Origin: an uncultured Candidatus Melainabacteria bacterium
GTDB lineage: Bacteria > Cyanobacteriota > Vampirovibrionia > Gastranaerophilales > Gastranaerophilaceae
Direction of reading: 5' to 3'
DNA length: 64,000 bases
Assembly (NCBI GenBank): GCA_947570135.1
Contig: CANOTP010000001.1
Location: forward strand, 310,001 to 374,000
The position numbers were made by a program, and so were the translations under genes. Below the pieces are notes generated by a model. It was not told the DNA's origin and ran no database searches. It saw only the letters and a program-made list of their open reading frames with translations. Positions 18,885-62,487 of this stretch are shown here, piece by piece (the first letter of the stretch is position 1; the number at the start of each line of letters is the position of its first letter).

Positions 18885-19571
18885 ATGAAAAAGCAGGCTA
18901 CAGTTAAAATTTCGGGGGGGGGTAGCTTTTCTTGCTTAGCGCGGAGCGCATTCTCATTAGCTGAAATATTAATTACCCTCGGTATAATCGGGGTTGTTGC
19001 GGCACTTACTATCCCAAATCTTATTACATCTCATCAAAAAGAATCACTGTTACTAAACTTCAAAAGGCAATATCTGTATTAAATCAGGCTTCTAAACTTG
19101 CGAATGAAGAGGGGTTAGGAGTACCTCCTTCCGATATGTCAAATGCAGAATATTTTAAAACCTATTGGGCTCCGTATTTAAAGGCTTCATATTGTAATAT
19201 TTACAGTGCTTGCGGGTATAAATCAAACTGTCCTTTTGTTTTCCCCGGCGGGTATCCTTATCAGGCTGAACTGATAACTCCTAATATTGCTGTTTTTTTT
19301 AACAATGGACGGGTTCTTTGTCAGTATACGTGATTTTAATACCGAGAGTTCTGCTGTAATTGTAGATATAAACGGTTCTTCTCCTCCAAACAGATTTGAA
19401 CGAGATGTTTTCTTTTTAGTTAAGGAAAATGATGCTGTATATCCTGAATGTAAAGATTCTCCAAATGCTTATGTTAATGCGTATTGTCGTGGTGCTAACG
19501 ACGGCAGATGTTGTGCCGAGCGTATACGTCGTGCAGGGTGGAAGATTGATAAATCATATCCGTGGAAATAG
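18885..19571 (+). pseudogene. Pilin-like gene with a G-tract leader and two frameshifts
   Basis: It starts with the shared leader ATG at 18885 behind an AAAGGAG-type site (AAAAGGAGAGAAAAGT). The leader contains nine Gs (18914-18922) and runs in frame into SAFSLAEILITLGIIGVVAALTIPNL. The frame then breaks. Near 19047 two extra bases shift it; the other frame continues TVTKLQKAISVLNQASKLAN to about 19333. At the T8 run (19292-19299) a single extra T returns it to the first frame, giving TMDGFFVSIRDF, SPPNRFERDVFFL and the usual end CCAERIRRAGWKIDKSYPWK. The two indels add up to three bases. Either the gene is inactive or these are sequence errors; the T8 run is a typical error site, but the two-base insertion is not. 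Confidence 0.8.
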
Positions 19572-19572
19572 G

Positions 19573-19600
19573 TTGATATTTTACTTAAAAAGAGTATAAT
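19573..19600 (+). promoter_or_regulatory. Promoter of the Xer recombinase gene
   Basis: TTGATA (19573-19578), 16 bases, TATAAT (19595-19600). The -10 ends seven bases before the ATG at 19608, so transcription should start at or next to the start codon. Confidence 0.6.
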
Positions 19601-19607
19601 CAGGTTT

Positions 19608-20486
19608 ATGGATATTTGGTACTTATCGGAATATTTAGAGTTTTTGGAGATTGAAAAAGGGTTAAGTCAAAATACTTTAGATGCATACCGTCGTGATTTG
19701 ACCGATTTTTTTGAGTACGTAACCGAACGATCGTTGGCAGATGTCTGTAAAATCGAACGAGGGGATTTAAATGCTTATATTTTGAAGCTTCGTGAGAAAA
19801 AATATTCACCTACAAGTGTTACAAGAAAAGTTGCATCATTAAGAGGCTTTTTTAAGTGGTTTTGCGCAAACGAATATGGGACAAAAAATCCCGCACAAAC
19901 TTTAGAACAGCCAAAGCTTCCGAAACGATTGCCGAAAGTTATGACAATTGATGAGCTTAATACAATTCTTAATTCTAAATTAAGTGAAAGAGAAGCTGTT
20001 ATTGTCGAACTTTTATACGGCTGCGGACTGAGGGTATCAGAACTTGTAAACTTAAAACTTAGCAATATAGATATCAAATCAAAATATATTCAGTGTTACG
20101 GAAAAGGTTCAAAAGAGCGGATTGTGCCGTTCGGTTCTAAAGCAAAAACGGCTTTGACAAAGTATTTTAAACTCAGAGATTATATTTTACTTAATAACAA
20201 TTTAAAGGATAAAAAACTGCCGCTTTTGCTGCGCGATAACGGAAAAACTGTAACCCGCCAGGATATTTATGATTTTATCAGGCAGCAGGGCGAAAAGATT
20301 CATAAACATATCTCTCCACATACCTTAAGGCATAGTTTTGCGACACATTTACTTGAAAATGGAGCAGATTTGAGGGTTGTTCAGGAACTTTTGGGGCATA
20401 GCGACGTTGCAACAACTCAGCTTTACACTCATATCACCAAAAAACGCTTAAAAGAAGTTTATTTTGCAATAAATAATCGCTCATGA
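19608..20486 (+). CDS. xer: Tyrosine recombinase of the XerC/XerD family
   Basis: A site-specific recombinase of 292 residues, the normal Xer size. The N-terminal SAM-like domain reads YLEFLEIEKGLSQNTLDAYRRDL and VTRKVASLRGFFKWF. The catalytic domain shows all active-site residues: Arg in YGCGLRVSELVNL, Lys in YGKGSKERIVP, His-x-x-Arg in SPHTLRHSFATHLLENGADL, His in QELLGHSDVATTQ and the nucleophile in QLYTHITKKRL. It probably resolves chromosome dimers, since nothing nearby looks like an integrated element that would need its own integrase. It is apparently leaderless (TATAAT seven bases before the ATG). Whether it is XerC or XerD cannot be settled here. Confidence 0.93.
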   Translation: MDIWYLSEYLEFLEIEKGLSQNTLDAYRRDLTDFFEYVTERSLADVCKIERGDLNAYILKLREKKYSPTSVTRKVASLRGFFKWFCANEYGTKNPAQTLEQPKLPKRLPKVMTIDELNTILNSKLSEREAVIVELLYGCGLRVSELVNLKLSNIDIKSKYIQCYGKGSKERIVPFGSKAKTALTKYFKLRDYILLNNNLKDKKLPLLLRDNGKTVTRQDIYDFIRQQGEKIHKHISPHTLRHSFATHLLENGADLRVVQELLGHSDVATTQLYTHITKKRLKEVYFAINNRS

Positions 20487-23917: not shown

Positions 23918-23965
23918 ATGAAAAAGCAGACTACAGTTAGAATTTCGGGGGGGGTAACTTTTTAA
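23918..23965 (+). CDS. Leader reading frame upstream of the second G-tract pilin
   Basis: AAAAGGAGAAAAAGT precedes an ATG that encodes MKKQTTVRISGGVTF and then TAA. It contains eight Gs (23947-23954). With one more G the frame would skip this stop and run without interruption into the pilin frame that contains position 24022 and 24142. The same leader opens the pilin loci at 18885 and 61646. It may be a leader peptide, the out-of-phase start of the pilin, or a frameshift site. Confidence 0.55.
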   Translation: MKKQTTVRISGGVTF

Positions 23966-24120
23966 GCTCCTTTCGGAATAGTTTTGCAAGTAAGGTCACT
24001 CTGAACATCAGCTCTTCTTGTTTGCGAGGAACGAGGATTACAAGGGAGGGTACCCCTTGTGGGTGGATTCAGGGTCTATCCATGTATATGCCGGCCCTAA
24101 CGGGACAAACCAACATTTAC

Positions 24121-24147
24121 AGATTCCGTGTCAAGCACGGAATGACA
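24121..24147. repeat. Palindromic repeat unit inside a pilin reading frame
   Basis: AGATTCCGTG, TCAAG and CACGGAATGACA: a hairpin of the form AGATTCnGnn-TCAAG-nnCnGAATGACA. The same unit occurs at 25949-25975 and, with another centre, at 61788-61813. A left-hand element GTCACTCTGAAC lies at 23996 here and at 61719 in the third pilin. Confidence 0.7.
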
Positions 24148-24798
24148 AAAAGATTTGCATTTACCCTTGCAGAAGTATTAATAACCCTCGGGATTATTGG
24201 GATTGTTGCTGCGATAACTATCCCGGGTCTTATTACAAGGTGTCACAGGCAACGTGTTGAAACCAAACTCAAAAAGTTCTCTTCTGTAATGAATCAAGCT
24301 GTCAGAATGTCTGTTGCAGAACATGATGATATAGTATTTGATACTGTTTCCGCTGAAAATATGGGAAATCGCGGAGCTATTCTTCGCGAGTGGTATGATG
24401 AGAATTTGTTGAAATACCTCAAAGCCGAATATACGAAAGATTATCCTGTTAAAAGTCCGTATGTTAAGGTAATGTTACTTGACGGCAGCGGTTTTGTTTC
24501 GTATATTTCAAACAGCGGAACAGTGATTCATTTCTTCTATTGTGTGGATGTTAATGATAAATCTTGCAAGCTTGAAAGTTATGACGGGCGAAATACTTTT
24601 CTGTTTAATTATTACCCTGCTAAAAAGGCTGTATTACCTGTCGGTTACAATATTCCTGATATTAATACGCTAAAAAACAATTCTAAATCTATGGCTGCAG
24701 GATGTTACAATAAGAGCTATCCGAACAGGCATTATTGTACTGCTTTAATCGCTCGTAACGGGTGGAAAATTCCGAGTGATTATCCTTGGATTAAATAA
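24142..24798 (+). CDS. Type IV pilin-like protein behind a G8 leader
   Basis: From the ATG at 24142 the product starts MTKRFAFTLAEVLITLGIIGI, a compact prepilin signal with the hydrophobic helix. It ends CTALIARNGWKIPSDYPWIK, the common C-terminal end of this set. It contains several cysteines (CYNKSYPNRHYC). The frame stays open upstream to 24022 and beyond, through a palindromic repeat (24121-24147) that supplies the ATG at 24142. The only strong ribosome site is at the leader ATG 23918, which is one base out of frame because of the eight-G tract. The true start is therefore uncertain: 24142, or 23918 after slippage. It lies downstream of mazG-folE2 and could share their transcript. Confidence 0.8.
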   Translation: MTKRFAFTLAEVLITLGIIGIVAAITIPGLITRCHRQRVETKLKKFSSVMNQAVRMSVAEHDDIVFDTVSAENMGNRGAILREWYDENLLKYLKAEYTKDYPVKSPYVKVMLLDGSGFVSYISNSGTVIHFFYCVDVNDKSCKLESYDGRNTFLFNYYPAKKAVLPVGYNIPDINTLKNNSKSMAAGCYNKSYPNRHYCTALIARNGWKIPSDYPWIK

Positions 24799-59876: not shown

Positions 59877-60363
59877 AACGGTATTGTTTGTAACGGCAAA
59901 AGCTCTGTCGGTTGAAGAGATTGCCGCATATTTAGATGTTGAAGCCGAAGAAGTTGAAGAAGCTATTTTAGAGCTCATTATGGATTATGCATCTCGTGAC
60001 GGGGCGCTTGAAATTGATGATGAGAACGGTTATATTTTGCAGGTAAAAGAAGAATATAGCGATATCGTCGAAAAAATTTGTCCGATTGATTTGTCACCTG
60101 CTGTTTTAAGAACACTTCTTGTTATCGCACTTAAAGAACCTATCCGCCAGACTGAGCTTGTAAAACTTCGCTCGGCAGCCTATGAACATGTAGCTGAACT
60201 TGTTGAAAAAGGTTTGGTAGCAAAACAAAAAGACAAAAACGGCAGAAGTATTAATGTTAAAACGACTGCAAAGTTTGCGGAATACTTTAAATTAAAGGGT
60301 GATACAAGAGCTTTGGCACGACAACTGGAAATGGATTTGGAAGAAAAGAAAGCTGATGCGTAA
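59848..60363 (+). CDS. scpB: Segregation and condensation protein ScpB
   Basis: A 171-residue partner of ScpA with two winged helices: QQLKSRIETVLFVTAKALSV, EEIAAYLDVEAEEVEEAILE, and LRTLLVIALKEPIRQTELVK with RSAAYEHVAELVEKGLVAKQ and KFAEYFKLKG. The ATG at 59848 follows AAAGGTGG; the GTG at 59839 would overlap that site. It overlaps scpA by 29 bases, and its last bases overlap the next gene. Confidence 0.95.
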   Translation: MSQQLKSRIETVLFVTAKALSVEEIAAYLDVEAEEVEEAILELIMDYASRDGALEIDDENGYILQVKEEYSDIVEKICPIDLSPAVLRTLLVIALKEPIRQTELVKLRSAAYEHVAELVEKGLVAKQKDKNGRSINVKTTAKFAEYFKLKGDTRALARQLEMDLEEKKADA

Positions 60364-61633
60364 AGTTTTACTTGGAATATTATTTTTGGTATTGGTTGCG
60401 GCTTTGTTGTATAAGTCACCGTTTTCGGCACTTTTTAATTATAACAGGGCAAAGGCTTTATATGACGGTGGGAAGTACGAACAGGCGCTGCCGTATTTTG
60501 AAAAATCTCTTTTTTCGGATAATAAAGGGATTCAGGCAAGATATTATTACGTAATGGCACTGTCTAAATCAAAACCGACATATTCCGTTCAGAAAAAACT
60601 CTATGAAATGGCGGTCGGCTTACCGCAGGATGAAGCGGCAAAAGTTGCAAAAGCTCAAGCCTCAGCACTCAGATATAAGCTTTTGAAAGGCGTTGATAAT
60701 AATTATATTTATAACGCAGCAATGGGGAATGATATTTTAAGGTGGGATATTAAATCTTTTCCGTTAAAGGTTTATATTGAACGAGTTTCAGATGTTCCCG
60801 ATTATTATTGCCCTGCAATAAAAACGGCGTTAGAGGCTTGGAGTGAGCGAACTAATTTTGTAAAATTTGATTTGGTTGAAACTCCTGACGGCGCTGATAT
60901 TTTGATTAAATTTAAAGATATTCCTTCGAATATTTGCACAGGCGGAGTTTGCAGGTATTCGGTTGCCTACACCGAACCTAATGTCGGAAAAGAAAATGTT
61001 TTACAAAATATGAGTCTGACTTTTTATAAGACAAACCCGTTAAATAAGCCGTTTACAAATTTGGAGATTTATAACACCGCAGTCCATGAAATCGGTCATA
61101 CTCTGGGTATAATGGGACACAGTGAAAATCCTTCTGATATTATGTTTGCGACAAAAGACGGTGAAGCTTCGGTTTATCGAGCTTATAATTCATTATCAAT
61201 GCGGGATTTAAGAACTCTGGCACTTTTATACAGGTTAAAACCGACAATTTCTAATGTGAAAGACTTATCAAGTGAGAATTTTTACTATGCTCCGTTAATT
61301 ATCGGAGGAGATGAAGTCAGGCTGCAAAAGAAATTAACCGAGTATAAACGATACATTCAACAATATCCGAATATCGCATCAGGCTATATAAACTTAGCTA
61401 CAGTATACGCGGATTTAGGTGATTTTGATTCAACGCTGAAACTTCTTAATCAGGCAGAAAAGCTTGTTAAAAACGATGATGAAAAGTATTTGATAAATTA
61501 TAATAAAGCGGTTTTACATTTTAACACTCAGGAATATTCTTTGGCATTAGAATATGCAAATCGTGCAAAATCTATAAAGAGTAATCAGGGAGTAGATGAG
61601 TTAATATCTGAGATAGAAAAACTTACAAAATAA
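60356..61633 (+). CDS. Membrane-anchored matrixin-type zinc protease with TPRs
   Basis: A 425-residue protein with an N-terminal anchor (MRKVLLGILFLVLVAALLYK), a TPR near residues 30-75 (RAKALYDGGKYEQALPYFEK) and a metzincin domain. KTALEAWSERTNFVKFDLVE, the zinc site AVHEIGHTLGIMGHSENPSD (HExxHxxGxxH) and the Met-turn DIMFATKDG identify the matrixin group. TPRs return at the C-terminus (NIASGYINLATVYADLGDFD, STLKLLNQAEKLVKN). It acts outside the inner membrane. The start overlaps scpB by eight bases, so an extracytoplasmic protease is coupled to condensin genes. The pilin leader ATG follows 12 bases after the stop. Confidence 0.9.
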   Translation: MRKVLLGILFLVLVAALLYKSPFSALFNYNRAKALYDGGKYEQALPYFEKSLFSDNKGIQARYYYVMALSKSKPTYSVQKKLYEMAVGLPQDEAAKVAKAQASALRYKLLKGVDNNYIYNAAMGNDILRWDIKSFPLKVYIERVSDVPDYYCPAIKTALEAWSERTNFVKFDLVETPDGADILIKFKDIPSNICTGGVCRYSVAYTEPNVGKENVLQNMSLTFYKTNPLNKPFTNLEIYNTAVHEIGHTLGIMGHSENPSDIMFATKDGEASVYRAYNSLSMRDLRTLALLYRLKPTISNVKDLSSENFYYAPLIIGGDEVRLQKKLTEYKRYIQQYPNIASGYINLATVYADLGDFDSTLKLLNQAEKLVKNDDEKYLINYNKAVLHFNTQEYSLALEYANRAKSIKSNQGVDELISEIEKLTK

Positions 61634-61645
61634 AGGAGGAAAAGT

Positions 61646-61708
61646 ATGAAAAATCAAGCTATGACTAGTATCTCGGGAGGGGTAACTTTTACGGCTCAGG
61701 ATTGGTAG
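61646..61708 (+). CDS. Leader reading frame upstream of the third G-tract pilin
   Basis: AAAGGAGGAAAAGT gives a perfect ribosome site for an ATG encoding MKNQAMTSISGGVTFTAQDW and then TAG. It contains GGGAGGGG (61675-61682), the counterpart of the G8/G9 tracts. One extra base in the tract would place it in frame with the pilin, as at 23918. The plain frame overlaps the pilin frame at 61702. Confidence 0.5.
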   Translation: MKNQAMTSISGGVTFTAQDW

Positions 61709-62487
61709 GAATTTTTCGTCACTCTGAACTTGATTCAGAGTCTATCCATGCCAATAAAAACCCCTTACTGGAAGAATCGACATTGATAGATTCTGACGTA
61801 CGTCAGAATGACAGAAAATTTGCATTTACCCTTGCAGAAGTATTAATTACCCTAGGTATAATCGGTGTTGTTGCAGCGATGACTATTCCGAATTTAATGA
61901 ATACATATAAAGCTAAGCGTTTACAGACTCAGTTTTTGAAAACTTATTCTGTAGTTCAACAAGCATTTAAGCAAATGGAAGCGGATGATGTGTCTTTAGA
62001 TCCTTCAACTTATGACAGGCATGAAAATCCTTTTTATAATATTTTTAAACAATATTTTAAAGGGGTTACGTATTGTAAGTCCTCCAGTAAGGCTTGTTAC
62101 AGCTTGCAAGATGTTCAGGGTGGTTATAAAAATTTGACGGGCAATAGTAAACTTGCAAGTACTTATTTTGATGATTGTCAGTTTGTATTGCCGGATGGTA
62201 CATTGATAAATATTGATAGTCCATATATTCCAGGGGTAAGCCGAGTATGGGTTATGCCGGATATAAACGGTTATAATAATCCACCTAATCGCTTAGGATA
62301 TGATCTTTTTGTATTTGAGTTTAAGGATGGCGAACTGAGAACAATGGGCAGCGAAGGAACAATGTATTCAGATATGGATAAGTATTGTTCATTAACAAGT
62401 TCTGAGGCTTTAAACGGTATGGCTTGTTCTCATAAAGCAAAAACAGATACAGATTATTTTAAATGGGTTGTAAAAAACGTTAAATAA
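61702..62487 (+). CDS. Type IV pilin-like protein behind a GGGAGGGG leader
   Basis: The frame contains KFAFTLAEVLITLGIIGVVA and AMTIPNLMNTYKAKRLQTQF, then NNPPNRLGYDLFVFEF. Several cysteines occur. Upstream of the prepilin motif the only possible start in frame is the TTG at 61702, which has no proper ribosome site; there is no in-frame ATG before the helix. About 40 codons between TTG and the motif come from a palindromic repeat (RHSELDSESI at one end, IDSDVRQNDRK at the other). Translation most likely begins at the leader ATG 61646 with a change of frame, or the gene is switched off. It ends FKWVVKNVK and overlaps the PHP gene by eight bases. Confidence 0.75.
   Translation: MVGIFRHSELDSESIHANKNPLLEESTLIDSDVRQNDRKFAFTLAEVLITLGIIGVVAAMTIPNLMNTYKAKRLQTQFLKTYSVVQQAFKQMEADDVSLDPSTYDRHENPFYNIFKQYFKGVTYCKSSSKACYSLQDVQGGYKNLTGNSKLASTYFDDCQFVLPDGTLINIDSPYIPGVSRVWVMPDINGYNNPPNRLGYDLFVFEFKDGELRTMGSEGTMYSDMDKYCSLTSSEALNGMACSHKAKTDTDYFKWVVKNVK
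61718..61813. repeat. Palindromic repeat pair inserted in a pilin reading frame
   Basis: The left unit GTCACTCTGAACTTGATTCA(GAG) folds as CTCTGAA-CTTGA-TTCAGAG. The right unit (61788-61813) is AGATTC, TGACGTACGTCA and GAATGACA with a perfect 18-base palindrome. The two are separated by about 45 bases and are translated in the pilin frame. The same left and right elements flank the insertion in the pilin at 24142. Confidence 0.7.

Follow-up and report, generated by a model that had tools for sequence, protein, structure and literature searches.

Pilin-like genes of an uncultured gut melainabacterium stand behind a common leader module in which the length of a G-tract sets the reading frame of the pilin. 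We consider it fairly probable (about 0.62) that these genes form a phase-variable family switched by slipped-strand mispairing and that the copy starting at position 61646 has most likely been frozen in the off state. Slipped-strand phase variation fits the data better than programmed ribosomal frameshifting. The copy at 61646 is probably a locked relative of homopolymer contingency loci and not itself a member of that class. Throughout, the window denotes the whole stretch of DNA that was analyzed (64,000 nucleotides), and positions refer to it.

Anatomy of the locus at 61646

The features of this locus, and of the two other family members in the window, are as follows.

60299..61633, plus strand: matrixin-like (Peptidase_M10) protein with TPR repeats, the upstream gene; the same gene lies upstream in the sister genome G026
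61634..61639, plus strand: Shine-Dalgarno sequence AGGAGG, 6 nt before the ATG, from the sequence
61646..61708, plus strand: leader ORF, as the DNA reads, MKNQAMTSISGGVTFTAQDW and stop; family leader MKxQxxxxISGG
61675..61682, plus strand: interrupted tract GGGAGGGG; the collinear G026 locus has a pure G8
61683..61824, plus strand: spacer of 142 nt, open in the pilin frame only, from stop counts
61725..61792, plus strand: dispersed repeat in the spacer, in-frame ELDSESI...STLIDS; the two motifs that were searched are the ends of this repeat
61783..61785, plus strand: TTG with GGAAG 8 nt upstream, possible but weak as an internal start, 14 codons upstream of F61825
61825..62487, plus strand: intact pilin-like protein with 220 aa counted from the prepilin F and a class III N-terminus (PF07963)
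18885..19082, plus strand: first family member; leader at 18885, G9 at 18914-18922, pilin in frame (F18951)
23918..24798, plus strand: second family member; leader 23918-23965, G8 at 23947-23954, pilin from F24160 to its stop, offset 2

Direct reading of the sequence bears out the preliminary description of an ATG with a good ribosome site and a broken tract: six bases separate AGGAGG from the ATG at 61646, and the 20 codons of the leader end at a TAG stop codon (61706-61708). Since the ribosome site comes directly after the stop codon of the matrixin/TPR gene, the leader may be co-transcribed with that gene. Inside the leader, GGGAGGGG takes the place of the G8 of the family; it occurs once in the window (mean of 0.27 in dinucleotide shuffles) and, with a longest run of 4, it is not an uninterrupted mutable tract. 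The prepilin motif FTLAEVLITLGIIG starts at 61825, 179 nt past the ATG, which puts the pilin at offset 2; its mature form of 220 aa is intact up to the stop codon at 62485-62487. No stop codon interrupts the pilin frame in the spacer, compared with 6 and 3 in the other two frames. From the last stop in the pilin frame (61666) to F61825 there is no ATG, as had been claimed before, and no GTG either; the sole candidate starts in this interval are TTG 61702, TTG 61783, CTG 61768 and ATT 61711.

The protein encoded at 61825 is pilin-like and a predicted prepilin. Its N-terminus scored above the cut-offs of PF07963 (N_methyl; 22.7 bits, cut-off 21.2) and TIGR02532 (IV_pilin_GFxxxE; 18.2, cut-off 16.3), and it combines the prepilin motif with a hydrophobic helix in the manner of type IV pilin-like proteins with a class III signal. 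A profile search matched PilA-type chains over the first 30-50 residues (E 0.0007-0.005). The predicted structure (mean pLDDT 85, confident outside the first 20 residues) has a helix at 3-53, of which residues 5-19 are of low confidence. When this model was compared with the PDB by Foldseek, none of the 29 matches reached E<=0.001; in a further fold comparison, PAK pilin came first (114 residues at rmsd 4.1, Z 4.5) but level with unrelated entries, and no pilin stood out from these.

The dispersed repeat lies in frame within the part of the prepilin that is expected to be cleaved off, and related inserts are present in other tract pilins (L204/L232, L247). The cleaved prepilin leader may be tolerant of inserts. 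An Rfam scan of the window returned tRNA only and no known leader RNA, and a repeat finder run with default settings on the 61646 and 23918 loci found nothing.

A family of tract pilins and its frame rule

The source genome (G000) is a draft of 1.9 Mb in 16 contigs. When searched with the leader pattern MKxQxxxxISGG, allowing up to two mismatches, it yielded 29 places, and a reversed-pattern control yielded none. A prepilin query detected 121 pilin-like N-termini, 36 of which stand behind tracts, and most of the 41 distinct runs of at least eight Gs that we counted are located at pilin leaders. For the analysis of reading frames, we tabulated 43 leader/G-tract/pilin loci that contain a pilin motif (34 in the source genome, nine in the sister species G026). 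Absent from this table are L012 (because of the regular expression used), L004, L005, L009 and L062 (no pilin motif within reach), and the G000 loci L215, L217, L222 and L232 (no in-frame leader, or at a contig end).

An 8-nt tract combined with offset 2 was found at 32 of the 43 loci (25/34 in G000, 7/9 in G026), including four with interrupted tracts: the window copy (L003), L024, L027 and L066. A single rule, by which the pilin frame minus the tract length is constant, fits 38/43 loci; length 9 is in frame, 8 gives offset 2 and 7 gives offset 1. Random frame relations at other leaders had been set beforehand as the refuting outcome, and the loci instead follow this rule. In-frame copies are rare (3/43; L001, L028 and L079). 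The claim that the loci at 61646 and 23918 have the same offset proved correct, since both are at offset 2. That this agreement goes beyond chance holds insofar as it is systematic (29 places compared with zero in the control; 32/43 loci), but the loci are paralogous and do not count as independent cases; judged from the leaders, the common offset is inherited through a homologous leader module rather than being an independent coincidence.

The spacers between tract and prepilin motif range from 22 to 271 nt. Over their combined 3,493 nt, the pilin frame contains no stop codon, compared with 104 and 108 in the two alternative frames, in loci that share ancestry and are not independent trials. 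We see no other reason for a stop-free pilin frame than that the spacers are translated through. Most members with short spacers have no start codon from the tract to the motif, so that translation has to begin in the leader and pass through the tract. The tract therefore lies in the 5' coding region, and its length sets the frame.

The in-frame pilin at 18885 is stopped 43 aa past F18951 by damage in its body. The region 18885-19800 holds the window's only in-frame tract copy (G9), and at least two frame changes break its pilin body. Six contig ends of the source genome fall at tract leaders: on C1, C2, C3 (end), C5 (start) and C15 (both). These breaks suggest that near-identical leader copies are common to several loci.

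Tract length within and between species

The neighborhood of 61646 is collinear with that of the sister species (80% at the nucleotide level over 3.7 kb), where the counterpart carries a pure G8 at offset 2. The spacers of the two loci, 142 and 187 nt long, differ by 45 nt, and the phase is kept. The mature pilins are 72% identical (dN/dS 0.18, dS 1.04). Measured against the outgroup G014, dN amounts to 0.217 for the window pilin and to 0.265 for its G026 counterpart; hence the window copy is not decaying faster. The sister species also carries the same GGGAGGGG at another locus (L066), in front of a different, intact pilin that is 31% identical to that of the window. In G000 and G026 together, with the contig-end loci L004 and L009 excluded, the pilin was dead or missing behind 3/6 interrupted tracts compared with 3/41 pure ones (Fisher p 0.021); among motif-bearing loci alone, dead pilins were found in 2/5 and 1/39 cases, respectively (p 0.030). 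Interruption of the tract apparently tends to accompany loss of the pilin, and the window pilin is still retained.

Tract length differed in seven of nine within-genome pairs that have 0-3 mismatches over 52 flanking nt; these pairs come from three genomes, share loci between them and are thus not independent, and the lengths are those of the assembly consensus. The loci at contig ends on C1 and C3 are identical in the leader and the downstream sequence, and their tracts are G8 and G9. With these reservations about consensus assemblies and dependent pairs, tract length changes much faster than the neighboring sequence. Among pairs with larger flank divergence, 46-61% have equal tract length. 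Tract length appears to retain its history only briefly and to gather around a mode specific to the genus. It is constrained as well as mutable, because 46-61% of the divergent pairs are equal and because, at a dS of about 1, the tracts of the window locus and of its counterpart in G026 have the same length of 8 nt. Pairs of G000 and G026 loci matched through their flanks had lengths of 8/8 (window L003/L064), 8/8 (L219/L071), 8/8 (L010/L069), 8/7 (L025/L073), 8/9 (L009/L079) and 9/8-interrupted (L228/L066); gene order beyond the flanks was compared for the window pair L003/L064 alone. Loss of mismatch repair was ruled out as the cause of length change, since MutS (MutS_I) was found in 11/11 genomes.

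The family extends beyond the genus. A pattern that ignores the leader (six Gs, then 10-40 nt, then FTLAE) matched in 70/288 genomes of the family and never in the controls, among the matches listed. Its eight-G version matched in 51/192 genomes of the order, all from that same family, and in none of 22 genomes from six other families of the order, again among the matches listed. From 96 matching places in other genera we examined 80 loci, of which 66 have a strict leader, i.e., an ATG preceded by a Shine-Dalgarno sequence; the remaining 14 are without such a leader or without a tract. Genus g7 has mostly G10, one base short of the frame, and g10 mostly G11, one base past it, while the g3 tracts vary from 9 to 11 and are in frame at 10. 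Under the strict leader rule, a single frame class accounts for 35/39 loci in g7 (mode G10), 16/19 in g10 (mode G11) and 7/7 in g3 (lengths 9-11). Outside the source genus, 7/66 loci are in frame by the strict rule and 13/79 by a looser one (L150 excluded; L173, one of the 13, is a doubtful TTG call). Binomial values derived from hand counts (12/78 for the other genera) presuppose independence and carry no weight in our conclusions. The pattern of stop codons recurs in the spacers of these 79 loci from 12 family genomes (1,718 nt), with none in the pilin frame compared with 65 and 65. The direction of the shift is not conserved: the source genus (g1) and g7 need one base more, and g10 needs one fewer.

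One locus outside the genus (L167, G255) has an interrupted tract of its own, GGGA followed by eight Gs, and its pilin is stopped 12 aa past the motif. In viral contigs, two matches to the tract motif were found, with no pilin motif around either of them, and we put them down to chance.

Proposed slipped-strand switching, competing readings and known systems

In the model that we favor, about 36 pilin genes of the source genome share a module of ribosome site, ATG, short basic leader, G-tract, spacer and pilin, and translation would begin at the leader ATG. With a tract of 9, the leader would run into the pilin and yield a prepilin of ordinary appearance, with a basic leader and with FTLAE preceded by G or A, that could then be processed; with a tract of 8 or 7, the peptide would end a few codons past the tract. 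Slipped-strand mispairing at replication would alter the tract length, so that each pilin would switch on and off at random, being off most of the time and a single base away from the on state. The tract at 61646 would have been divided into G3 and G4 by a G-to-A change, with slippage left at ordinary low rates only. Because the A in GGGAGGGG makes slippage unlikely, the window copy is most likely locked off, perhaps since recently, given that its pilin is still intact, although it may be expressed in some other way. Slipped-strand switching accounts for the lengths, the frames, the in-frame copies and the fast change, but not for the dominance of one off state, which possibly stems from default-off selection, shared leader ancestry or a mutational mode. 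Several observations count against parts of the model. The low share of in-frame copies (3/43 in the source genus, 7/66 elsewhere), with the in-frame gene at 18885 a damaged one, speaks against a free switch; all tract lengths are assembly consensus from one genome per species, and homopolymers are prone to error; and the window pilin shows no sign of the decay that a locked gene should undergo, its amino acids changing no faster than in G026.

Slippage might instead occur on the mRNA or the ribosome, with out-of-frame G8, G10 and G11 tracts as the normal condition, a few percent of pilin made from every copy, and the A of the window copy tuning its output low or silencing it. We regard this as unlikely, even though one out-of-frame state is in strong excess (32/43 loci, with g7 and g10 alike), the out-of-frame pilins are intact and under purifying selection (dN/dS 0.15-0.18), and a pure G8 contains the perfect heptamer G GGG GGG. 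Near-identical copies differ in tract length, in-frame lengths exist, and the shift in g10 runs in the direction opposite to that in g1 and g7, which argues against a single programmed ribosomal frameshift. A slippery heptamer (X XXY YYZ), present in the pure-G8 copies, is absent from the window tract (TCG GGA GGG GTA), which has no run of five or more either; the long uninterrupted run used for programmed transcriptional slippage is therefore missing as well. Moreover, 12 loci folded about like shuffled sequences downstream of the tract (z -1.67 to +1.90; pseudoknots lie outside the folding model), so no marked stimulatory RNA structure was seen. These points leave a programmed -1 ribosomal frameshift unsupported: the missing heptamer at the window copy, the lack of downstream structure at the 12 loci and the inconstant direction. 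The preliminary description had offered locking or ribosomal frameshifting for the window copy; the former is the best reading, as the A makes slippage rare, and the latter is unsupported. The out-of-frame state might still be the working state in a related sense, with pilin repertoires decoded at a low level by message slippage and GGGAGGGG as a weaker setting. This seems to us decidedly unlikely; if true, the homopolymer would be a genome-wide dial for pilin dose, which would explain the dN/dS near 0.18 of a copy that cannot slip and the recurrence of GGGAGGGG in the sister species ahead of another, likewise intact pilin.

Similarly improbable is the proposal that the window copy is a dying pseudogene or a silent donor, permanently out of frame and intact only through recency or recombination. 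The intact window pilin of 220 aa, with a dN/dS of 0.15-0.18 and no acceleration, speaks against it, despite the interrupted tract, the more frequent dead or missing pilins at interrupted copies (3/6 vs. 3/41) and the near-identical leaders at several contig ends, which suggest copying between loci. Internal initiation would make the leader ORF a remnant or a regulator. At TTG 61783 the SD-like GGAAG lies 8 nt upstream, and the basic residues of what would be a 14-residue basic leader ending A^FTLAE are present. This start is possible at the window locus because the dispersed repeat supplies the TTG; the TTG and its SD belong to that repeat, however, the commonest spacers in the family (22-28 nt) are too short for such a start, and the lack of stops in the pilin frame all the way from the tract would go unexplained. 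TTG 61702, in turn, lacks a properly spaced SD, and we consider internal initiation very unlikely. Least credible of all is a sequencing or assembly error in the tract that masks an in-frame gene. Homopolymers are prone to error and this is a draft assembly of 16 contigs, but the same 8-nt offset recurs at 25/34 loci and at 7/9 in another assembly, spacers of many different lengths lack stops in the pilin frame, GGGAGGGG does not resemble the typical error in a homopolymer, and the tract of the G026 counterpart is equally long.

Homopolymeric contingency genes are known from Campylobacter and Neisseria, in which the frame is set at many loci per genome by a poly-G or poly-C tract of about this length in the 5' part of the coding sequence. 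Those systems mostly concern glycan, flagellar or outer-membrane genes, whereas the melainabacterial repertoire consists of pilin-like genes with one common leader module. The closest architecture is that of two sortase pilus loci of Bifidobacterium breve UCC2003 (bbr_0113, bbr_1889; PMC9187656): there, a G-tract lies between the ORF for the secretion signal and that for the pilin, and the two are fused only if replication slippage brings the tract to the right length. Further likenesses are a second ORF without a usable start, a gut commensal as host and a genome copy that is off. Those pili are of the sortase type (LPXTG, Sec), with two loci per genome and tracts of G10 and G11 (PMC9187656), whereas the melainabacterial loci number in the dozens and encode type IV prepilin N-termini, with tract lengths of 8, 10 or 11 depending on the genus and with an interrupted copy. 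Homopolymeric tracts near the 5' end are reversible inactivators, e.g., in Listeria inlA (PMC2831843); there, too, the tract is very near the start codon and the out-of-frame product is a very short peptide. The inlA tract is a poly(A) in a single gene, in contrast to the poly(G) of the melainabacterial gene family with its conserved out-of-frame default. Passages of a paper on a termite melainabacterium mention pilA for pilin once and tracts not at all. Our literature search, with most subscription journals outside its reach, found no description of a leader/G-tract/pilin family. The architecture is already known from the B. breve loci; the novelty lies in the class of pilin, in how many loci there are, in tract lengths that are specific to the genus and in the lineage.

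If the slipped-strand reading is correct, uncultured gut Melainabacteria would possess a switchable pilin repertoire that is large for the genome size (36/121 behind tracts in 1.9 Mb), and tract-length counts in metagenomes that already exist would allow surface variation in a common uncultured gut lineage to be tested directly. The broken copy at 61646 would serve as a natural control, with the same leader and the same offset and slippage not expected.

The tract pilins of the source genome are also unusual in their orientation: 35 lie on the plus strand and one on the minus strand, compared with 33 and 52, respectively, for tract-less pilins (Fisher p 2e-10). On each of 20 fragments from three other genomes, all tract pilins of the fragment are on one strand. 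Plus-strand GC skew was about zero or positive in all 20-kb samples (G000 contigs C1-C10 and the window), even where coding is mostly on the minus strand, which is odd for draft contigs of arbitrary orientation.
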